From an uncultured Muribaculaceae bacterium (GTDB taxonomy: Bacteria; Bacteroidota; Bacteroidia; Bacteroidales; Muribaculaceae): DNA of 64,000 bases. Shown one piece after another: positions 9,240-31,750 of the stretch. A program made the position numbers and the translations under genes. The DNA lies in contig CALUMJ010000007.1 of the NCBI GenBank assembly GCA_944321715.1, forward strand, positions 38,306-102,305. The letters are read 5' to 3'. Positions within the stretch are counted from its first letter, which is position 1; every line of letters starts with the position of its first letter. Below the pieces are notes generated by a model. That model had not been told where the DNA came from. It did not search any database and saw only the letters and a program-made list of their open reading frames with translations.

Positions 9240-12200
9240 ATGGATTATACCTTTCTGCACGAGTATCAGGCCGACGACAAGCAGCGGTATTGCGATGTGT
9301 TAGACCAGTGCATCGACAAGTTGCCCTATACGTTGGCTGCACCTATAGGTAACGTTTGCCTTGAGGTGGGGCGTGGAAATTATGGCAAAGCCATGAACTA
9401 TATGCTCGACTTTTTCGAGATAACCACGCAATATCTTTTCTGTGTGCTTTATGCCAAGTTGGCGGCGAAGTATGAGAAAGACGGGTCGGCACGGGCTGTC
9501 GAGCTGCACAAATTTATTAACAAGATTGACAACAAACGGCCTTTGGCTTTTGGCGATTGGGTTAACGACCTGTTTTGCCCTATGGTTGGGCTTGCTGTAA
9601 AGGAATTTCCCGACGATGCACTGTGCATGTCGTTGCAGGCCAATGTGGTGAACCGCAAGCGAAACATATTGCTTGGCGACAAGCGCAATCCCAGCGTGGT
9701 GAATATCCGCAATCGTTACAAGGGGCACACTACAACGTTGTCGGAGGCTCTGTATCACGATGTGGTGTTCACTCTCGAAGAGCGTATGCTCGTGCTGGCA
9801 TCGGCATTGTTGCCGCTTGGCGACTGGCATTTTGTTTCATGCCTTGAAGACAAATGCTTGTCGCTTAATGGAATGCACCCATCGGTCATATCACATAACA
9901 AAGTGCCTGTGGCAATGTTGCCGGGGCATTATTATATATCGACACGACCTTTAGATGAGGTTGCAAGTGCCGACATGCTCGATTTGTTCCCGTTGGTGCA
10001 TTGCAACGAGAAGGGGCATGTGTATGTGTTCCAGTCGCTTAAAGGCGAGTATGTAACGTTTGTGTCGTCGAGTGTCGATGCGCTGAATGTCGAAGACGAT
10101 TGCTACAACGAATACTTTGATGCCTATTTCCAGAAAATCTTGCCGACATTTGATGTGGCTAAAGACCTGAACTGGGATGCCTACAAAGATTTGATGCGGC
10201 GAGAGTCTAACCGCTTCTTGGCGCAAGCATATAGCGAGAAGAAGTATAATGCCGAGCTGTTTGTTGACCAGAAACGGCTCAGCCGCTATTTGCAGGAGTT
10301 TATTGAGAGCGACAAGACGCTTTTCCCGTTGCTTGGCGAGGCTGGCCAAGGGAAAACCAACCAATTATGCTACTGGACCGAAAGCCGCATAGGCGAGGGT
10401 AGGGCGGTATTGACACTGCCGTGTGCCAATTTTGCTGGTATGACGCTCGAAGAGAGATTAAAAAGTGTGTTTGGCACGAGTGTGCGCCGCCCCATAGGCA
10501 AGTTGCTCGGCGATATACAGCAAAAGGCCGACAATGCCGGCGAAGAGGTGTGCATATTTTTTGATGCAATCAACGAATGCCTTGCATACGGCGATGGCAA
10601 TGAAGACACACAAAGCCCGTTGTTGCTGTATAACGACATCAAGCAGATGCTTGTGCGGGAAGAATATACACGCATCAAGGTATTATTCACGTGCCGTAGC
10701 TACACGTGGAAAAATTTGCTGCAACCAGGAAGCCGTGGGCACGAAAGCATGATGTTCACACAGGGCAACGAAGATGATTTCGCTGTCAGGGGATTCGATG
10801 ATGAGGAATTGCGGTCGGCATACGATATATACGGCCAGCTTTATCAGATGCAGACATCGTTTGCCGAGTTAAGGCGCAACGTGGTAATAAGGCTCAAAGA
10901 CCCGTTGGTACTGAAAATGGCTTGTACCAATTACTTGAATGCAGCCATGCCCATCGATACTATCAAATTTACTTCGTTGTCGCTCTTCCACAAAATGTGG
11001 ACCGATGTGGGGAATTCATACGCAGGGCGGCGGCAGTGTGAAATACTCGGTGAGATTGCCCGTTACATGCTCGGGAAGTATGAGCAGGGTGTGCAGGTCG
11101 ATAGCGTGCAAGTGGCCGAATTGGAATCGGCGTATATCGACGAGCAGTCGGAGCTGCACGTTTTGGCAGGATTGGTATATAAGAAAGATGGCATAAGTGT
11201 TGCCTACGGCGAATTGCTTAATAAGCCCGAACGACCCATATTGCGCAGCGTGGAAGCCGCCGATGGCCGAGGGCGCAGCATACAGTTTATTTACGAGCGA
11301 TTCTTGGAATATATGCTTGCTATCACGTTTGTCGGCAACGAAACGGGGAAAATGGAGCATCGGCAATGCCCAATACCGGCCGAAGTGTATATCGACAAGT
11401 TGCATAACGGGGCGACCAACGTGGTGTTTATCGGGGCATTGCGCAATGGATTGTTGCTCGACTACCTGCGCACCGGTAGCACGGCCACTATCATAGACTT
11501 GGCGAGCAAGTATAGCGACGATTACGATGTGATGCACCTGCTGACCGAGGTGATGGACACGCTCGTGAGGGAGAATTACGAAACGCAATTGTTTGCCTTG
11601 ATTGACGACTTGATAAACAAGAAGTTGCCCGATGATACACGGTTGGTGGCGCAGTTCAACAAGATAGATGGTGCAATAGCCGATGGTAAAGCTGGCGAAG
11701 ACGCAATGCTGCAATACAGGGAGTTGTATGAACAGTTGTCGCCCATCATCAAGTTGCGCAGGCTGGCGTTGGTCGGTCTGTTGAATGGCGTTTTCCTCAC
11801 CGATTATTTCAACGAGGGATTGTATTCGGTCAGCCCTATGAAATTCTTGTGGCGGCTGATGGCCGAGCCAATCGGCGATGTGAAGAATGATGCCTGCATG
11901 TATGTTTACTACTTGAGCAATAAGAAATATACGCAAGGATTGTTGCCGCTCAAAGAAAACTTGTGCGAGCTGGTGGTGGGTGATATGTTTGATGCCATAA
12001 AGAGCGGCAGCATATTGCGAATGCTGTGCAATGGGCGGGTTCGCAAGCAGAATGTCGTGTTCATAGAAACCTCTATACGCCTGTGCGTGCTTATGATAAT
12101 TGACACGCTGCTTACGGGTGAAGATGATGACGCACGTGTGAAGCGGCTTTTAGGCGAGGTGACGGCACTTGTGAAGCATCTCACGTGCAACTTTGTGCTG

Positions 12201-13412
12201 GTGCGCCTGTTGGTGCCGTTCTTTCAGATTGCCTTGCGGCGCCAGCTTACATTCCAGACCGATTATGTGAACAATATCATAGAATACCAGACATTCTGGG
12301 ACGATACTGTCGTTCCTATGGCCGATGATGGTAGTGGGCGGTGGAACAGGGAATATTTCAGGCATTTGCTTGAAAATGTGTTTGCCCCTTACGTCGATGG
12401 CGACAGGGAGCGCACGGTTGCAGGATTTGCCAAGTGCCGGGATATGGTATTGTCGGCATATATGTGTGGCGACAGTTTCAGTTATTTCATGCTCGAAAGG
12501 TTGTTGGTGATTGTAGGGTCGGCAAGTATCGAGGCTCTGAGGCCTGTATTCGACAGGTTCTTTTCCGACGAATTTCGTGGTAGCAAGTGGTTTGACTATT
12601 CGCAGATGTCGATGCTTTACATCCTTTATCAGCTCGAAGTTAATTCACCGTGTATGCTCGATGGCGTGCAACGCATTTATGCGCGCGAGAGCAAGGACTG
12701 GACTTACCGTTGCCGGGGCTTCTTTGCCGCCCGCAACAGCCACAAGGCCAACGCTGCGGGTGTATATAAGCGCAACGTGATGAATTGGTATTGCGTGGTA
12801 TATTGCCACCACAGTGGCGACAATGTGCCGCACGGCGGCGATGAACGTTGCGTGCCGGCATTTTATGAGCTGCTTGAGGTGGCGATGAGTGATGGCGACA
12901 AAGAACTGCTTTACCACCTGCTGGAAAATATCTCGGAACTGATTACCGACCACGGATATATCGCTACGGCGTTGAGCCTGCTGAAATATATTTTGGAATA
13001 TTACGACAGCGCCGAAAAGGTCGCGCAAATCGACGGCACGACGCTCAAGCGCGGCTGGATGCACCGCAAGCCGCTTGCCGAGGTTGTGGGTAACGTGCTT
13101 GCCACGGCCAAGAATTACTTTCCACAACAAGTCGATGCGTTTATCAAGAAAGATTTGCTCGGGCTTGGCTTCCCTGGCATTTCAAAGTATAGGGAGGAAA
13201 TATTGAACTATAATCCGAGTGGCGAAACGCTTTCCGACTTGTTCACGCACCGGTTTGGCAACTTCTTGATGTGGTCGTTGCTGCACGAGGAGGCGGTGGA
13301 TAGTTTCGCTTGCGAGGCAATGTTGGCGGCTCCCGATGCCGACAATTGCTTCAAGTGGTTCAACCGGGTGGTGAAGATTTTGTTCCGCCACTTGTTCAAT
13401 GTGAAATTGTAA
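9240..13412 (+). CDS. STAND-type NTPase with HEPN-like N-terminal motif and helical-repeat C-terminus
   Basis: A 1390-residue protein, probably cytosolic, with no signal or TM segment. Residues ~45-200 are helical and contain RNRYKGH at 157-163, followed by a helix (LEERMLVLASALLPL). This is the spacing and context of the HEPN ribonuclease motif RN-x4-H. The P-loop GEAGQGKT is at 366-373, Walker B CIFFDAINE at ~438-446 and the sensor-type TCRS at ~484-487, followed by LKDPLVLKMAC, the PLxL motif of STAND winged-helix regions. The remaining ~800 residues are alpha-helical, probably a repeat sensor scaffold. Known STAND proteins include immune and signalling switches such as Avs-type antiphage proteins. 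The GDPD gene starts 13 bp after its stop. HEPN and defence assignments are my inference; the NTPase assignment is firm. Confidence 0.8.
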   Translation: MDYTFLHEYQADDKQRYCDVLDQCIDKLPYTLAAPIGNVCLEVGRGNYGKAMNYMLDFFEITTQYLFCVLYAKLAAKYEKDGSARAVELHKFINKIDNKRPLAFGDWVNDLFCPMVGLAVKEFPDDALCMSLQANVVNRKRNILLGDKRNPSVVNIRNRYKGHTTTLSEALYHDVVFTLEERMLVLASALLPLGDWHFVSCLEDKCLSLNGMHPSVISHNKVPVAMLPGHYYISTRPLDEVASADMLDLFPLVHCNEKGHVYVFQSLKGEYVTFVSSSVDALNVEDDCYNEYFDAYFQKILPTFDVAKDLNWDAYKDLMRRESNRFLAQAYSEKKYNAELFVDQKRLSRYLQEFIESDKTLFPLLGEAGQGKTNQLCYWTESRIGEGRAVLTLPCANFAGMTLEERLKSVFGTSVRRPIGKLLGDIQQKADNAGEEVCIFFDAINECLAYGDGNEDTQSPLLLYNDIKQMLVREEYTRIKVLFTCRSYTWKNLLQPGSRGHESMMFTQGNEDDFAVRGFDDEELRSAYDIYGQLYQMQTSFAELRRNVVIRLKDPLVLKMACTNYLNAAMPIDTIKFTSLSLFHKMWTDVGNSYAGRRQCEILGEIARYMLGKYEQGVQVDSVQVAELESAYIDEQSELHVLAGLVYKKDGISVAYGELLNKPERPILRSVEAADGRGRSIQFIYERFLEYMLAITFVGNETGKMEHRQCPIPAEVYIDKLHNGATNVVFIGALRNGLLLDYLRTGSTATIIDLASKYSDDYDVMHLLTEVMDTLVRENYETQLFALIDDLINKKLPDDTRLVAQFNKIDGAIADGKAGEDAMLQYRELYEQLSPIIKLRRLALVGLLNGVFLTDYFNEGLYSVSPMKFLWRLMAEPIGDVKNDACMYVYYLSNKKYTQGLLPLKENLCELVVGDMFDAIKSGSILRMLCNGRVRKQNVVFIETSIRLCVLMIIDTLLTGEDDDARVKRLLGEVTALVKHLTCNFVLVRLLVPFFQIALRRQLTFQTDYVNNIIEYQTFWDDTVVPMADDGSGRWNREYFRHLLENVFAPYVDGDRERTVAGFAKCRDMVLSAYMCGDSFSYFMLERLLVIVGSASIEALRPVFDRFFSDEFRGSKWFDYSQMSMLYILYQLEVNSPCMLDGVQRIYARESKDWTYRCRGFFAARNSHKANAAGVYKRNVMNWYCVVYCHHSGDNVPHGGDERCVPAFYELLEVAMSDGDKELLYHLLENISELITDHGYIATALSLLKYILEYYDSAEKVAQIDGTTLKRGWMHRKPLAEVVGNVLATAKNYFPQQVDAFIKKDLLGLGFPGISKYREEILNYNPSGETLSDLFTHRFGNFLMWSLLHEEAVDSFACEAMLAAPDADNCFKWFNRVVKILFRHLFNVKL

Positions 13413-14413: not shown

Positions 14414-16135
14414 ATGGCAGAATATGAAGATGCGCTGCGACCTGGAACAGTGCTGCAAGGTGGCATGAACAGCTACCGCATCGACCGCATGCTCGGGCAA
14501 GGGGCATTCGGCATCACCTACCTTGCCTACACCCGTGTTGCGGTTACAGGCCAGCTTGGCACGTTGCAGTCCGAGATACTTGTTGCCGTGAAGGAATTTT
14601 TCATGAACAAAATCAACGGTCGCAATGGCAGCACGGTGACCAATAGCGGCGGACGGGGCGGAATGTTTGAGGACTACCGCCGCAAGTTTGTCCGCGAGGC
14701 TCGCAGCCTCTCCAAGCTGGAACACCCGGGCATAGTGAGAGTGGTCGAAACGTTTGACGCTAATGGTACGAGTTACTATGTCATGGAATATTGCTCCGGC
14801 GGCAGCCTTGACGCACTTATTGCTCGCCGTGGCGGCATTCCGCAGGGCGAAGCGTTGGCACTGTTCGGGCAGATGGCATTGGCGTTGGCCTATATGCACA
14901 GCCGCCGTATGTTGCACTTGGACTTGAAGCCTGCCAACGTGATGCTGCGCGGCGACGGTCGCCCAGTGCTAATCGACTTCGGGCTGGCAAAGCAATTCGA
15001 CAAAAACGGTGAACCCGAGGCAAGCACCACCATTGGCAGGGGCACGCCGGGCTATGCGCCCATCGAGCAGTCGGACTACAACGAGGAGGAACACAAGGCG
15101 CGTTTCCCGGTGACGATGGACATATACGCCCTCGGGGCGACACTCTACAAGATGCTTACTGGCGAACGTCCTCCCAAGGCTTCCGACGTGCTGGCATACG
15201 GCTTCCCCGAGCAGCCGTTCCGTGAGCATGGAGTAAGCGGCAACGTGGTGGCAGCCATACGCCGCGCCATGCAGCCCAAGCCCGGCGACCGCTACCAGAC
15301 GGTGACTGATTTCGCCGCCGCATCGGGCATTGCCATCGAGGTCGCGCCCCACAATGAAGAAGAAACCCACAAGACCGATAAAACGCAACATGACGATGAA
15401 GTGGAAGGGGTAATCCTCGTCGATGACGGCAAGGGCAATAGAGATGACTCTAATTTGCAATCTAATCTGCCGGAAATCGAGATGGTGTGGGTGTCGGGCG
15501 GCACGTTCACGATGGGGGCAACCTCGGAGCAGGGTGGCGCTGCGTATGATTGGGAGAAGCCTGCGCACAGTGTTACGCTGAGCGGCTATTACATCGGCAA
15601 GTATGAGGTAACGCAGAAGTTGTGGAAAGCTGTGATGGGCAGCAACCCGAGCTACTTCAAGGGCGACAACCTGCCGGTTGAGAATGTGAACTGGAACGAC
15701 GTGCAGACTTTCATCAGGAAATTGAATCAGTTGACAGGGAAGAATTACCGATTGCCGACAGAGGCGGAGTGGGAGTATGCAGCTCGTGGCGGTAATAATA
15801 GCCGCGGCAACAAGTACAGCGGGAGCGACAACGTAGGCAGCGTAGCGTGGTACTATGAAAACAGCGGTAGTACAACGCACCCAGTAGGGAGCAAGTCGCC
15901 TAACGAGTTGGGCATTTATGACATGAGCGGGAATGTGTGGGAATGGTGTCAGGACTGGTATGGCGATTATAGCAGCTCATCTCAGCGGAATCCTAAAGGA
16001 CCTGCAAGTGGGTCGAACCGCGTGGGCCGTAGCGGAGGCTGGTGCAACGGTGCCGGGAGCTGTCGGGTGTCGTACCGGCTCAACCTTTCTCCCGTCAACA
16101 GGTACGACTTCCTTGGCTTCCGCCTGGTTCTTTAG
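14414..16135 (+). CDS. Ser/Thr protein kinase fused to FGE/C-type-lectin-fold domain (gene 1, no TM helix)
   Basis: A 573-residue protein. Residues ~20-310 form a Hanks-type kinase: glycine loop GQGAFGITY, Lys60 (VAVKEF), catalytic loop HLDLKPAN at 168-175, DFG at 188-190, and a TPGYAPIEQ activation/APE-like segment. The usual HRD Arg is Leu. An acidic linker (~311-350) leads to an FGE-sulfatase-type domain (352-573: FTMGATSEQ, YEVTQ, RLPTEAEWEYAARGG, YDMSGNVWEWC, GFRLVL). This fold is shared with DGR variable proteins, not only with formylglycine-generating enzyme. There is no TM helix, so both halves are cytosolic. The final ~45 codons look like a DGR variable repeat (separate entry). The gene has its own promoter and lies 136 bp after the GDPD gene. 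A likely role is ligand sensing by the FGE domain that controls the kinase; the targets are unknown. Confidence 0.9.
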   Translation: MAEYEDALRPGTVLQGGMNSYRIDRMLGQGAFGITYLAYTRVAVTGQLGTLQSEILVAVKEFFMNKINGRNGSTVTNSGGRGGMFEDYRRKFVREARSLSKLEHPGIVRVVETFDANGTSYYVMEYCSGGSLDALIARRGGIPQGEALALFGQMALALAYMHSRRMLHLDLKPANVMLRGDGRPVLIDFGLAKQFDKNGEPEASTTIGRGTPGYAPIEQSDYNEEEHKARFPVTMDIYALGATLYKMLTGERPPKASDVLAYGFPEQPFREHGVSGNVVAAIRRAMQPKPGDRYQTVTDFAAASGIAIEVAPHNEEETHKTDKTQHDDEVEGVILVDDGKGNRDDSNLQSNLPEIEMVWVSGGTFTMGATSEQGGAAYDWEKPAHSVTLSGYYIGKYEVTQKLWKAVMGSNPSYFKGDNLPVENVNWNDVQTFIRKLNQLTGKNYRLPTEAEWEYAARGGNNSRGNKYSGSDNVGSVAWYYENSGSTTHPVGSKSPNELGIYDMSGNVWEWCQDWYGDYSSSSQRNPKGPASGSNRVGRSGGWCNGAGSCRVSYRLNLSPVNRYDFLGFRLVL

Positions 16136-16160
16136 TTTATAGCACTTGAGAAGGCCCTTG
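16014..16160 (+). other. Candidate DGR variable repeat (VR) and 3' homology of kinase-FGE gene 1
   Basis: Compared with the same region of the second kinase-FGE gene (31518-31662), differences concentrate at codons here reading TGC AAC GGT GCC GGG AGC, TAC, CTC AAC CTT TCT, GTC AAC and TAC GAC TTC. Nearly all are NNY, as expected if AAC/AAT template codons were mutated at their adenines. Between them, TGTCGGGTGTC, CGG and GGCTTCCG are constant. Similarity continues past the TAG (TTTnnnGCnCTTGAGAAGG) into non-coding DNA, as a VR with its homing site would. A 7-bp hairpin (GCTTTCC / GGGAAGC, 16160-16178) follows. No template repeat or reverse transcriptase is in the window. Confidence 0.55.
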
Positions 16161-16355
16161 CTTTCCTGTCCGGGAAGCATGCCCGCGGCATTTCCTTGAG
16201 CTAAAGAGTGGGAGCGCGGCGGAGAGCCCGGCGAGAAGGCGGAGCCACGAGCTGGGCACGTAGCCAAGCGACCGGGGTGGCAACGAAACGCGGCGAGTGC
16301 CGTTAGATGCGGCACACGCCGCGCTGGCGCAACCAATTTCAGCGCAGTGAAAAAT
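16161..16355. other. GC-rich structured non-coding segment with strong hairpin
   Basis: This stretch after the kinase-FGE gene is much richer in G+C than its surroundings and contains no convincing gene. Its clearest structure is at 16289-16323: CGCGGCG pairs with CGCCGCG, then a 1x1 A/A mismatch, then GTGCCG pairs with CGGCAC around a 7-nt loop. More GCCC/GGGC and TTTCA/TGAAA (16337-16352) complementarities surround it. It could be a structured RNA, a cruciform-forming repeat or the remains of a mobile element. A long minus-strand ORF through it (15977-16591) has low-complexity composition and overlaps the kinase gene, so it is not called as a gene. Confidence 0.5.
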
Positions 16356-16627
16356 GGGCGGCGAAGCCGTCCAACCATGACGTAACCGGCGGTGACAAGC
16401 CCCAACGGGGCGCAGGAACCGTCGGAAAGAGCATATTCGGCGAAACGGCCTCGAAGAGGTCGAACGAAACTCCATTGCACCGGCAGAGATATGGCAACAT
16501 GAGTCTTGTGGTGGCACGTTGGACCTCCTTGAGGCCCGTTATTGATAGATGCCATACCCGACGGTTCCTGCGCCCCGTTGGGGCTTGTCACCGCCGGTTA
16601 CATTAGATTTGGACGGCTTCGCCGCCC
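16356..16627. repeat. 70-bp inverted repeat with 132-bp spacer
   Basis: The left arm (16356-16425) and right arm (16558-16627) are reverse complements except for a few bases near ATGACG/CTAATG. The arms begin GGGCGGCGAAGCCGTCC and contain an inner GCCCCAACGGGGC palindrome. The spacer has no ORF or motif I recognise. The architecture suggests a non-autonomous mobile element or a large cruciform downstream of the kinase-FGE gene. The arm-end motif recurs with one change at 40084-40101. Confidence 0.75.
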
Positions 16628-16645
16628 TTGCACTGTGGCGGTAAC

Positions 16646-16823
16646 GAGGGTGTATCAAAATGCAGATTGCGCAATTTCGTAGGGACGCACGGCTCGTGCG
16701 TCCGCCGTGTAATTAGTTGTATATTGTATTGATTTACAAATGATTAACAAAACCTACGGCACACGGACGCACGAGCCGTGCGTCCCTACGAAATCGCTTA
16801 AATCTGCATTTTGATACACGCTC
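16646..16823. mobile_element. 178-bp MITE-like palindromic element, copy A
   Basis: The ends GAGGGTGTATCAAAATGCAG.. (16646-16668) and its complement (16801-16823) match over 23 bp with one mismatch. Inside lie GTAGGGACGCACGGCTCGTG.. and its inverted copy, giving inverted arms of about 58 bp around an A/T-rich centre. The element ends one base before the thiL stop codon. A diverged second copy is at 29418-29592. It has no coding capacity. Confidence 0.8.
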
Positions 16824-17870
16824 TTACGCGGTGGTGAAGGCGTTCCAGCCTTGGGCGCGGAGGGGGAGTTCGTTGCCGTCGCGCGTCTGCATCATGCAGC
16901 CGTATTTAGGCTCGGTGATGCGGCCTATAATCCTGATTCCGGGCAGCGATGCGATTTTCTCGTAGTCGGCGAGCTTGACGGTGAAAAGCAGCTCGTAGTC
17001 TTCGCCGCCGTTGAGCGCGGCGGTGACGAGGTTGAGGTTGAACTCCTCGGCCATGCAAGCCGTCTGGTAGTCGATGGGTATGCGTTCCTCATAGATTAGG
17101 CAGCCCGTGCCGCTCTGCTTGCAGATGTGCATCAATTCGGACGACAATCCGTCGCTGATGTCAATCATTGCCGTGGGCATGATGTCATGCTCGGCGAGCG
17201 TGGCGATGATGTCTTTGCGCGCCTCGGGCTTCAGCTGGCGTTCGAGAATGTATTCATGTCCTGCAAATGCCGGGCTGAAATCCTTGCCGGTGGCATTGCG
17301 CGACACGGCTTTCTCGCGTTCGAGCAGTTGCAAACCCATGTAGGCCGCCCCGAGGTCGCCGCTGACGCAGATGAGGTCGGTGTCGTGTGCGCCGCTGCGG
17401 TAAACGATTTTATCCTTCTCGCCCTCGCCGATGCAAGTGATGCTGATGAGCAGCCCCGTGACCGATGCCGAGGTGTCGCCGCCCACGAGGTCAACGCCAT
17501 ACACCTTGCAAGCCAAATTGATGCCGGCATACAGTTCCTCGATATGCTCGACTGTGAAACGCTTGGAAATGCCAAGCGACACGGTGATTTGCCGCGGAGT
17601 GCCGTTCATGGCATACACGTCGGAGAAGTTGACAACGGCAGCCTTGTAGCCGAGGTGCTTGAGCGGACAGTAGGTGAGGTCGAAGTGGATGCCTTCGAGC
17701 AGCAGGTCGGTGGTAACCAATGTCACCGTGTCGCCACCGGTGCCGATTACGGCGCAGTCGTCGCCAACGCCTTTAAGCGTGGAGCCGTTGTGAGGGGCAA
17801 CACCCTTGGTGAGGTGGTCAATCAGCCCAAACTCGCCAAGGGTGGCTATTTCTGTTTCTTTGTTGTCCAT
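16824..17870 (-). CDS. thiL: Thiamine-monophosphate kinase
   Basis: A 348-residue cytosolic enzyme that phosphorylates thiamine monophosphate to thiamine diphosphate with ATP. Family motifs are present: an N-terminal GVGDDCAVIG metal/nucleotide loop, TTDLLLEGIHF, AAVVNFSDVYAMNG, and VGGDTSAS in the PurM-like fold; GGEDYELLF lies near the C-terminus. Length and order match ThiL. Its ATG overlaps the stop of the upstream purine nucleoside phosphorylase gene by one base (TAATG), so the two are translationally coupled. It is the last gene of the purL-sppA-lpxK-punA-thiL run, and its 3' end abuts a MITE-like element. Confidence 0.95.
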   Translation of the reverse strand: MDNKETEIATLGEFGLIDHLTKGVAPHNGSTLKGVGDDCAVIGTGGDTVTLVTTDLLLEGIHFDLTYCPLKHLGYKAAVVNFSDVYAMNGTPRQITVSLGISKRFTVEHIEELYAGINLACKVYGVDLVGGDTSASVTGLLISITCIGEGEKDKIVYRSGAHDTDLICVSGDLGAAYMGLQLLEREKAVSRNATGKDFSPAFAGHEYILERQLKPEARKDIIATLAEHDIMPTAMIDISDGLSSELMHICKQSGTGCLIYEERIPIDYQTACMAEEFNLNLVTAALNGGEDYELLFTVKLADYEKIASLPGIRIIGRITEPKYGCMMQTRDGNELPLRAQGWNAFTTA

Positions 17871-29771: not shown

Positions 29772-31640
29772 ATGAATAACGAGGAAGGCTTGACAAGTGC
29801 GGCATTGCCCGAGGGTGCCATGTTGATGGGTGGCAAATACCGCATTGTCAGGAAGTTGGGGCAAGGGGGCTTCGGTATCACCTACCTTGCCGAGCATGTC
29901 GAGCTTGAGAAGCGGGTTGCAATTAAGGAATTCTTTTTCGGGCAGTATTGCGAGCGCGATTCCGACACGTCGAGCGTGACCGTGCCAACAGCCGGTAACC
30001 GCGAGCTTGTGGAGAAGTTCCGGCGCAAGTTTGTGAAAGAGGCGAAGCTCATAGCCAGCAAATTGTCGCACCCATCGATTGTGCGAGTGTCCGATGTGTT
30101 CAGCGAAAACGGCACTTCATACTACGTGATGGATTACATCGACGGCTGTTCATTGGCCGACATAATCAACGAACGTGGGCGCATGGGTGAAACGGAGGCC
30201 ATCGGCATCATCGACAGTGTGGGAAAGGCATTGGAATTCGTCCACTCGCGCAACATCAACCACTTAGACATTAAGCCCGGCAACATCATGGTAGAGGCCG
30301 AAACTGGCAACGTGGTGCTTATAGACTTCGGCGTTGCCAAGCAGTATGATGCCGAAACTGGCGAAGCCACAACCACCACTCTCGTTGCACGCAGCCGCGG
30401 CTATGCGCCGCCCGAGCAGTACAAGCCCGGCGGCGTGGGCAGCTTCACGCCCGAGAGCGACATTTATGCCCTCGGTGCGACACTCTACAAGATGGTAACA
30501 GGCACCACGCCCCCCGATGCAATGGAAGTGGCGGCACAAGGCGGAATCCCGCCGCTGCCCGACAGCATATCCGCCCCTGTGCGGCGCGCCATCACCGCCG
30601 CCATGCAGACTGCGAAGAAAGACCGCCCGCACACCGTTGCCGAGTTCCTCGGCATACTGCACGGCAAGGCCGTCGGCGAGGAAACCGAGGTGGACAAGGA
30701 GAAGCGGAAGCAGGACGACATTGAGGTAATCGTCATTGACGACGGCCGTGGCGGCAAAGGCAATAATGACAACAATGGTGGCAATGCAGAACGAGAGAGG
30801 GATGACCAGTCGGTGAGAAAACCGCAACCCGAACCGCAACCGCAGCGTCGCAAGTGGCTTCAGTGGGCAGTAGCCGCCGGGGTAGCGGTAGTTGCGTTCG
30901 TGGCAATCATGCTGTTTCGCCACGAGCCTGTAAATCCAGGCCCAGACTCCATTCCCAAACCGAATCTGTCTTTGCCTGAAATCGAGATGGTATATGTGCC
31001 GGGCGGCATGTTCACGATGGGGGCGACGTCGGAGCAGGAAAGCGATGCTTATGATGACGAGAAGCCGGCGCACAGCGTTACGTTGAGCGGCTACTACATA
31101 GGCAAGTATGAGGTAACTCAAGCACAGTGGAAGGCGGTAATGGGGAGCAACCCGAGTCATTTCAAGGGCGACAATCTGCCGGTGGAATTGGTCAGTTGGG
31201 ATGATGTTCAAACCTTCATCAAGAAGCTGAACCAGATGACAGGGAAGAGCTACCGCTTGCCGACTGAGGCAGAGTGGGAGTATGCGGCGCGAGGGGGCAG
31301 TAACAGCAGTGGCTACAAGTACAGCGGCAGCGACAACATACACAGCGTTGCGTGGTACAGTGTCAACAGCGACGACACGACGCACCCTGTGGGTAGAAAC
31401 ACGCCCAACGAGTTGGGCATCTATGACATGAGCGGCAACGTGTATGAGTGGTGCCATGATTGGTCTGGCAGCTACAGCAGTGCATCGCAACGCAACCCGC
31501 AAGGACCTGCCAGTGGGTCGTTCCACGTATATCGTGGCGGCGGCTGGAGCCACTATGACAGAGATTGTCGGGTGTCACGCCGGAGCTACGGCAAACCTGA
31601 TTCCCGGTTCGACTATCTCGGCTTCCGTCTGGCTCTTTAG
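29772..31640 (+). CDS. Membrane Ser/Thr protein kinase with extracytoplasmic FGE/C-type-lectin-fold domain (gene 2)
   Basis: A 622-residue protein. The kinase domain (~20-310) has a GQGGFGITY loop, Lys52 (AIKEFF), HLDIKPGN at 164-171 (Leu replaces the HRD Arg, as in gene 1), DFG at 185-187 and YAPPEQY. An Asn/Gly and Pro/Gln linker leads to one TM helix (~363-382) preceded by RRK, so the kinase is inside and the C-terminus outside the membrane. The FGE domain (401-622) is very similar to that of gene 1 (FTMGATSEQ, YRLPTEAEWEYAARGG, YDMSGNVYEWC, GFRLAL), whereas the kinase halves are far less alike. The last ~45 codons are VR-like. The gene has its own promoter and is flanked by a MITE-like element upstream and ispD downstream. 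A likely role is transmembrane ligand-to-kinase signalling. Confidence 0.9.
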   Translation: MNNEEGLTSAALPEGAMLMGGKYRIVRKLGQGGFGITYLAEHVELEKRVAIKEFFFGQYCERDSDTSSVTVPTAGNRELVEKFRRKFVKEAKLIASKLSHPSIVRVSDVFSENGTSYYVMDYIDGCSLADIINERGRMGETEAIGIIDSVGKALEFVHSRNINHLDIKPGNIMVEAETGNVVLIDFGVAKQYDAETGEATTTTLVARSRGYAPPEQYKPGGVGSFTPESDIYALGATLYKMVTGTTPPDAMEVAAQGGIPPLPDSISAPVRRAITAAMQTAKKDRPHTVAEFLGILHGKAVGEETEVDKEKRKQDDIEVIVIDDGRGGKGNNDNNGGNAERERDDQSVRKPQPEPQPQRRKWLQWAVAAGVAVVAFVAIMLFRHEPVNPGPDSIPKPNLSLPEIEMVYVPGGMFTMGATSEQESDAYDDEKPAHSVTLSGYYIGKYEVTQAQWKAVMGSNPSHFKGDNLPVELVSWDDVQTFIKKLNQMTGKSYRLPTEAEWEYAARGGSNSSGYKYSGSDNIHSVAWYSVNSDDTTHPVGRNTPNELGIYDMSGNVYEWCHDWSGSYSSASQRNPQGPASGSFHVYRGGGWSHYDRDCRVSRRSYGKPDSRFDYLGFRLAL

Positions 31641-31662
31641 TTTTGAGCGCTTGAGAAGGTCG
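31518..31662 (+). other. Candidate DGR variable repeat (VR) and 3' homology of kinase-FGE gene 2
   Basis: Codons at the variable sites read AGC CAC TAT GAC AGA GAT, CGC, AGC TAC GGC AAA, GAT TCC and TTC GAC TAT. Nearly all are NNC/NNT, or A-rich codons an adenine-targeted process would leave. TGTCGGGTGTC, CGG, GGCTTCCG and CTTTAGTTT are shared with gene 1. Two constant-block differences (tcA/tcG, Agg/cgg) also fit changes at template adenines. Similarity to gene 1 continues to about GCATGTCCGCGGC at 31683-31695, beyond the stop codon. Confidence 0.55.
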
Positions 31663-31750
31663 TGGATTCTGTCATAGGGATTGCATGTCCGCGGCTGCCA
31701 AGCCATCACTGTGGGCAGGACAGATTGCCGTCGCATGGCGTAATTTGCGG

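Follow-up and report, generated by a model that had tools for sequence, protein, structure and literature searches.

This locus raises the question of whether a protein kinase gene can end in the variable repeat of a DGR located elsewhere in the genome and, if so, what has become of that DGR. The window, that is the whole stretch of 64,000 nucleotides that was analysed, carries two kinase-FGE genes. Gene 1 (14414-16135, +) encodes a protein of 573 aa with Pfam matches to Pkinase (1.6e-35) and FGE-sulfatase (3.5e-49). Its kinase domain (14483-15178, +, Pfam borders) contains the sequences VAVK, HLDLKPAN and IDFG, which we take to be the catalytic Lys, HxD and DFG motifs of a Hanks-type Ser/Thr kinase. 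With domain and motifs both present, gene 1 is classed as such a kinase, its phosphotransfer activity being predicted from sequence. The FGE / C-type-lectin-fold domain occupies 15479-16129 (+, Pfam), and its best solved relative, by sequence and by fold, is TvpA (2y3c), a DGR variable protein. When FGE genes are aligned, variable residues gather at one end of this domain, in a region that is poorly confident in the structure model (block means 34-50). One cysteine, C201, is invariant in 32/32 aligned FGE rows and the other catalytic cysteine position coincides, as judged by eye, with variable codons; both positions are presumably those of the catalytic cysteines of formylglycine-generating enzyme. 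No transmembrane segment was detected in gene 1 by hydropathy scan. Gene 2 (29772-31640, +) encodes a kinase-transmembrane-FGE protein of 622 aa, also with Pfam matches to Pkinase and FGE-sulfatase; its predicted transmembrane segment (30855-30923, +, residues 362-384) was placed by hydropathy only.

Both genes are surrounded by housekeeping genes; two genes before gene 1, on its upstream side, there is a STAND-like gene. The 1390-aa product of this gene (9240-13412, +) has a P-loop motif recognized by eye, weak similarity to Avs2 STAND NTPases (4e-9) and no Pfam match at 0.01; it may be a candidate defence gene. Elsewhere in the window, positions 28-745 and 2217-2937 are 66% identical over ~740 bp, a local duplication shared by two adjacent genes. 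A defence-kinase reading (PD-T4-6 / Mads6) is not favoured: the PADLOC matches cover the kinase domain only, involve many kinase models and look generic.

In the genome holding the window (2.82 Mb, 88 contigs, 92.9% complete) we looked for RTs, for FGE genes and for DNA resembling the 3′ end of gene 1. At E <= 0.001 contig C33 gave the single RT match. Next to this RT is a copy of the gene 1 end (C33:386-523), and a local kinase-FGE gene is present at C33:2386-4338. FGE matches numbered 15 in the genome, C33 template included. The region C33:895-1491 matches RVT_1 at 3e-6 with 27.5 bits, below the Pfam cut-off of 29.6. The RT matches those of eight DGR cassettes at 46-58% and contains the sequence IGNLTSQ, which we take to be diagnostic of a DGR-type RT. 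The accessory gene is of the HRDC type.

The variable repeat of gene 1 is 132 nt long (16004-16135, +) and corresponds to template C33:386-517 (-). Nineteen of the 36 template A differ in gene 1, as compared to 1 of the 96 other positions (Fisher p = 3.6e-12), so that, one site aside, the differences lie solely at template A. The translated template is an asparagine-rich stretch, as templates should be. In this genome, the fit to the template is just as good for two further kinase-FGE genes and nearly as good for a third. A DGR-type RT, template/repeat differences tied to A and a variable repeat at the 3′ end of a lectin-fold gene are all found in this genome; the accessory gene, however, is interrupted on C33 (see below), which lowers the likelihood of an element active here and leaves the identity of the repeat untouched. 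Overall, gene 1 is very probably a remote target of an HRDC-type DGR that rewrote the presumed FGE sensor of a predicted Hanks-type kinase and has probably stopped in this genome. A sequence-only reading of the window had proposed that gene 1 ends in a DGR repeat, as is now confirmed, and had set the repeats slightly downstream of their real positions (16004-16135 and 31509-31640). It also supposed a DGR acting from elsewhere, and suggested a search for a template carrying A next to an RT and an avd gene. Template and RT are indeed side by side on C33; the accessory gene is of the HRDC type instead of avd, and "acting" may belong in the past tense, RT and HRDC genes being disrupted.

The same reading had relied on the comparison of genes 1 and 2. 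The repeat of gene 2 (31509-31640, +) has drifted: it differs from the template at 23/36 A and 17/96 non-A positions, with 14/14 NNY codons kept. In both genes all 14 AAY positions of the template are NNY, in agreement with the NNC/NNT pattern pointed out earlier, and the words named as constant are constant. Amino acids differ at 20 of the 44 codons; 13 of these 20 correspond to template AAY codons and 15 to codons with any A. At the nucleotide level, 26 of 44 differences are at template A and 18 elsewhere. The statement that differences fall almost only at NNC/NNT codons was therefore too strong for this pair; gene 2 has drifted (17/96 non-A changes vs 1/96 in gene 1). Mostly synonymous divergence upstream holds for the constant part of the FGE domain (pN 0.107, pS 0.640, ratio 0.17) and fails for the kinase domains, which are only 49% identical and represent two types.

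The kinase-FGE genes read in this genome number ten (C33, C35, C6a, C6b, C24, C39, C50 and C55 in addition to genes 1 and 2), C28 being truncated by a contig end and kept outside the ten. Kinase domains were recognized by Pfam in five and by motif in all ten. A hydropathy scan places a transmembrane segment between kinase and FGE domain in 9/10 paralogues, gene 1 being the exception. The kinases are of at least two types, both carry the same FGE module, and linker and FGE modules are common to different kinases. The repeat of C6a is the same as that of gene 1 (19/36 A, 1/96 non-A vs the C33 template). The local C33 gene differs from the template at 23/36 A and 1/96 non-A positions, and C35 at 24/36 and 8/96. 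Like gene 2, C50 (18/35 A, 15/94 non-A), C24 (18/36, 21/95) and C28 (13/36, 15/95) are A-biased and drifted. The bias is weak in C6b (21/35, 32/94, p 7e-3), and with respect to the C33 template it is absent from C39 (16/36, 44/94) and C55 (20/35, 45/95). Adjoining the C6a gene, L035:5016-6647 (-) encodes a kinase of the same family with apparent Sel1-type repeats replacing the FGE domain; thus, the kinase family seems to swap sensor domains.

With one genome per species at hand, variation between strains was approached by comparing paralogues and members of the same genus. The search of 8 other members of the genus gave no RT match, and template-like DNA (E <= 0.001) was found in one of them, Ca. 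Avimuribaculum pullicola, whose genome is 83% complete. Its C43 repeat differs from the C33 template at 20/36 A and 1/96 non-A positions, showing that the template of one species fits a repeat in a congener. Four other A. pullicola repeats differ at 15-20 of 35-36 A and 12-15 of 94 non-A positions. Two of the four A. pullicola kinase-FGE genes read have a transmembrane segment and two do not. This species also encodes a 909-aa FGE protein with two tandem kinase-like stretches (L180:3199-5928, -), the first of which looks like a pseudokinase from its catalytic motifs, altered as judged by eye.

Silent sites distinguish the repeat from its surroundings. When gene 1 is compared with the local C33 gene, the kinase has a pN/pS of 0.31 and the constant FGE part one of 0.14, as against 4.24 for the repeat; pS is 0.06 in the repeat vs 0.36 in the adjoining FGE part. 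Similar repeat ratios, each with a pS of 0.06, were obtained for C6a vs C43 (4.27), C33 vs C6a (4.24) and C33 vs C43 (4.82). Low repeat pS together with high pN/pS is what mutagenic homing would produce by resetting silent sites and rewriting A codons. Drifted repeats give 0.40 (gene 2 vs C24) and 0.68 (gene 1 vs gene 2). Kinase pN/pS is 0.12-0.31 within a type (nine pairs computed) and 0.58-0.64 between types; judged from these sequences, the kinase domains look intact and under purifying selection.

A rather unlikely alternative is that repeats were diversified only in cis, beside the RT, and then spread by duplication or gene conversion, with no homing in trans. Such spread may have occurred in this family. 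The kinases of gene 1 and C6a are 49% identical and of different types, yet an identical 484-bp tract (15845-16328, +), with differing sequence around it, covers the whole repeat in both. We interpret this tract as a sensor module transferred by gene conversion, bearing in mind that copies could have been merged during assembly. The sharing of linker/FGE modules by several kinases, and of ~200 bp downstream of the repeat, would also fit. Against cis-only spread, the pS of 0.06 in the repeat vs 0.36 beside it implies that, since the divergence of gene 1 and the C33 gene, renewal has affected only the repeat; moreover, the pattern of A-site changes is a different one in each of gene 1, C33, C35 and C43.

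Homing in trans remains the preferred reading, and would proceed as follows. Copying of the template RNA would introduce random errors at A. The resulting cDNA would then take the place of the 3′ end of the target gene, whereby as many as 14 NNY codons of the FGE domain would be rewritten and silent sites reset to the template. These 14 codons presumably form the ligand face, by analogy with TvpA. The diversified FGE domain would act as the sensor of the kinase. Nine of the ten paralogues probably have their kinase in the cytoplasm and, beyond the transmembrane segment, their FGE domain in the periplasm; gene 1, having no such segment, would sense in the cytoplasm. Binding of a ligand (a phage, competitor or host molecule) might then switch kinase activity. 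Once the DGR had stopped, the repertoire could still be reshuffled by gene conversion.

The machinery on C33 looks broken in this assembly. The HRDC gene is broken into two pieces that differ in frame, the second of them containing a stop. A 171-bp palindromic element (C33:1830-2000) separates the pieces; it aligns with a MITE-like palindromic repeat of the window (16646-16826, unstranded, ~175 bp, terminal inverted repeats) whose family has dozens of matches in the genome. Another palindromic intergenic repeat with several genomic copies lies at 16356-16628 (unstranded). The RT is split over two frames, and a further frame shift near its start is possible by eye. Because of the interrupted HRDC gene and the frameshifted RT, the DGR has probably stopped here. 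An intact second RT could be missing from an assembly of 88 contigs that is 92.9% complete.

The disruptions and the shared 484-bp tract might instead be assembly artefacts, the DGR being intact and active and the repeats of gene 1 and C6a really different. The 88 contigs, and the difficulty of a perfect 484-bp repeat for short reads, speak for this possibility, and the C33 frameshifts could be assembly errors. The 171-bp insert hardly could: a whole palindromic element sits in the HRDC gene and has relatives at many other sites. In addition, disruptions occur at several separate points, whereas the kinase gene beside the C33 element is open. We therefore consider artefacts an improbable explanation, and retain that of a stopped DGR.

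Open HRDC-type genes do exist in relatives. Eight Muribaculaceae loci (L168-L175) contain cassettes in which both the HRDC-type gene and the RT gene are open, and every cassette has an A-biased template/repeat pair of its own (p 1.3e-4 to 4e-12). HRDC was detected by Pfam in 3/3 accessory proteins of this type tested, and 24 such proteins align. No kinase was seen in at least six local targets of relatives' cassettes, those of L169, L170, L174 and L175 being judged by their 60 N-terminal and 110 C-terminal residues, and two others, at L069, from frame and motif. Kinase-fused targets may thus be a speciality of this genus within the family.

Mutation of template AAY codons at A leaves NNY codons, and this signature was followed across FGE genes. 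In 32 aligned genes (gene 1 and 31 of 79 loci, chosen because the match formed one stretch), the third base is C or T in 427/447 codons at the 14 variable positions vs 3053/5638 upstream. With residues whose third base is free, the figures are 151/164 and 1701/2864. Among 87 FGE frames from the best 79 loci of one scan, mostly Bacteroidales, two with <13 aligned positions were dropped; at least 12 NNY codons were found in 77 of the 85 counted. The signature is present in 9/11 frames with a kinase motif and 68/74 without, this motif-based label missing some kinases (L049 and L121 match gene 1 over its full length and are unlabelled). At least five loci (L062, L067, L100, L102, L105), accounting for 6/85 frames, are outside Bacteroidales. 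The 79 loci are the nearest relatives of gene 1 and not a random draw. Ordinary diversifying selection on a lectin pocket, with no retroelement, would suit a large FGE family whose variable residues lie at one end of the domain, but the one-sided dependence on template A, the C33 template itself and the NNY excess at variable positions, also among degenerate residues, make it highly implausible.

RT or HRDC sequence of this type occurs within the examined DNA of 3/79 loci, and an RT match at E <= 1e-15 in 8/18 genomes behind 20 chosen loci. A Sericytochromatia kinase-FGE gene differs from a template in its own genome at 20/32 A and 1/91 non-A positions, in line with published cyanobacterial cases. 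No good template fit was found in their own genomes for L106, L073, L105, L046, L100 and L102, not all of which are kinases. In a related genome, G135, seven FGE matches lie within ~16 kb (contig C9:67331-83249); RT matches were obtained in 29 of 297 genomes, and G135 does not belong to these. The approach of a large DGR survey was, by its own account, unable to detect remote targets without an RT nearby (PMC8144416). The NNY signature, carried by most of the FGE genes sampled, offers a simple finder of such targets.

The sequences flanking template and repeat on C33 are related in an unexpected orientation: the post-template stretch is the reverse complement of the post-repeat stretch. For gene 1, a 3′ arm (16141-16200, +) is the reverse complement of C33:326-385 (-), with a score of 66 (p 0.002), and the match stops at the template border. 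Gene 2 has a degraded arm (31646-31695, +; score 27, p 0.006) ending 11 nt before that border. A like pattern was found in other cassettes, and the flanks of 28 HRDC-type and 33 other TR/VR pairs chosen by hand were then compared. Second copies of one cassette (L124-L132, L226, L069), near-identical pairs (L137, L139, L143, L151), loci without a pair (L118, L149, L215, L219, L239, L249, L252, L265), doubtful pairs (L152, L216, L230, L236) and viral loci (L246-L248, L250, L251, L253-L256) were left out. Three of the 28 (L214, L257, L261) are HRDC-type by RT alone; among the 33 others, 4/7 accessory proteins tested are avd-type by Pfam and 3/7 match nothing.

In the HRDC-type cassettes, the mean score of the inverted match is 32.8 within a cassette vs 17.1 between cassettes (p 2.4e-14), with a weak excess of direct matches (19.4 vs 17.2, p 9e-5). 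In the 33 other DGRs, inverted matches score 17.2 within vs 16.2 between (p 0.06). A match was called anchored when it reached the score limit of 22, started <=11 nt from the VR border and ended <=6 nt from the TR border. Anchored inverted matches are present in 16/28 HRDC-type cassettes, 10/756 mismatched pairs and 0/33 other DGRs (Fisher p 1.5e-7), these limits having been fixed after a first look at the data and the mean-score comparison being independent of them. With the 25 cassettes whose HRDC gene is in hand, 15/25 are anchored vs 10/600 mismatched pairs, and 14/24 when the near-identical L213 is also removed. Five of the 12 cassettes with no anchored match (L169, L171, L222, L224, L259) cluster in a tree of 22 HRDC-type RTs and 7 of the 33 others, the remainder having been removed by a motif filter. 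Arm sequences vary between genomes and match within a genome, i.e. they covary. A simple palindrome was rejected as the cause of the inversion, direct matches being far weaker (19.4 vs 32.8). A DNA hairpin after the repeat gained no support: two VR flanks and the template flank, when folded, were no stabler than shuffles (3/3 at z 0.09-0.22), a short local hairpin being possible.

Arm scores are 41-73 in the recently homed repeats (gene 1, C6a, C33, C35, C43), as compared to 27 in gene 2 and 13-19 in C24, C50, C6b, C39, C55 and three A. pullicola repeats; C28 (50) and A. pullicola C47a (38) combine an arm with a drifted repeat. The association of arm score with recent homing is suggestive only, arm and repeat being adjacent and possibly travelling together. 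The inversion is absent at the remote kinase target of the Sericytochromatia genome (the 20/32 A, 1/91 non-A repeat) and at L106. In a Desulfamplus target an inversion lies 45 nt from the repeat; no open frame >150 aa was listed for this target, so that it is not the kinase-FGE gene of that locus.

The arm could be an RNA element that steers homing. We tentatively propose, as a possibility that we rate somewhat below even, that HRDC-type DGRs home with a geometry unlike that of BPP-1, the post-template arm serving as a matched 3′ homology arm or guide that chooses the genes rewritten, in the present case kinase receptors throughout the genome. With priming at the far end of the arm, arm RNA and cDNA would form one strand collinear with the target antisense across the VR border. 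Such a model would account for the covariation, for the inverted orientation and for matches that lie so close to the borders. Alternatively, a protein might read the arm in either orientation, or the template might be shielded from self-homing. If functional, the inversion would account for target finding in trans by HRDC-type elements, and it is directly testable. In BPP-1, cDNA is primed inside the spacer RNA just past the template (available text of PMC12875486). An inverted repeat or hairpin after the VR appears in the available text of three of PMC3240598, PMC4891356, PMC12875486 and PMC4372165, and the inversion is described in none of these four texts, within a limited search to which most subscription papers were external.

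Earlier work has described DGRs, including those of the HRDC type with FGE targets, as well as remote targets and kinase-lectin targets. The expectation that a kinase with a hypermutated sensor might be an undescribed design was not upheld: cyanobacterial DGR targets include a serine/threonine kinase grafted to a C-type lectin domain, with the RT remote (Vallota-Eastman 2020, PMC7517822, available text). Those kinase-CLec proteins resemble the present ones in their N-terminal kinase, C-terminal DGR-diversified lectin fold, dispersed remote targets and paralogue expansion; gene 1 likewise combines an N-terminal kinase and a C-terminal diversified lectin domain with a remote RT. The cyanobacterial targets are mostly predicted cytosolic, whereas 9/10 paralogues have a transmembrane segment here. 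Further, the host is a member of Bacteroidales, the element is HRDC-type with disrupted machinery, and flank inversion is not described for the cyanobacterial targets in the available text of that paper.

Our literature search met no earlier flank inversion, no earlier transmembrane kinase receptors as DGR targets in Muribaculaceae-type Bacteroidales and no earlier repeat conversion between kinase types, gene conversion being covered only by looking for the term in PMC10053308. The available text of PMC12632263 cites a paper on Bacteroides DGRs. The locus points to a repertoire of receptor kinases built by a DGR in one gut-type member of Bacteroidales, where sensors have likely been changed in three ways: by mutation through the retroelement, by gene conversion and by the exchange of modules between kinases of different type.

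DGR conflict-system sensors (available text of PMC10907252 and PMC7159879) also have a DGR lectin/FGE domain fused to signalling domains, and a figure legend in PMC10907252 gives Pkinase among the target domains. Those sensors belong to multicellular bacteria and have STAND, TIR or caspase partners, whereas the present genes lie among housekeeping genes. Bordetella phage BPP-1 shares A-specific mutagenic homing into the 3′ repeat of a lectin-fold gene, and requires sequence directly past the VR for efficient homing (available text of PMC3240598 and PMC12875486). Its accessory gene is avd, as opposed to HRDC here, and its post-VR element is a short hairpin, whereas here the VR flank matches the inverted template flank. 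Treponema denticola, with its TvpA DGR, shares the HRDC accessory, FGE targets and several remote targets (PMC4891356, available text). That text gives lipoprotein signals for 62% of the targets and makes no mention of a kinase domain, in contrast to the kinase fusion found here; like the present genome, in which the element has probably stopped, some T. denticola strains possess targets without an RT.
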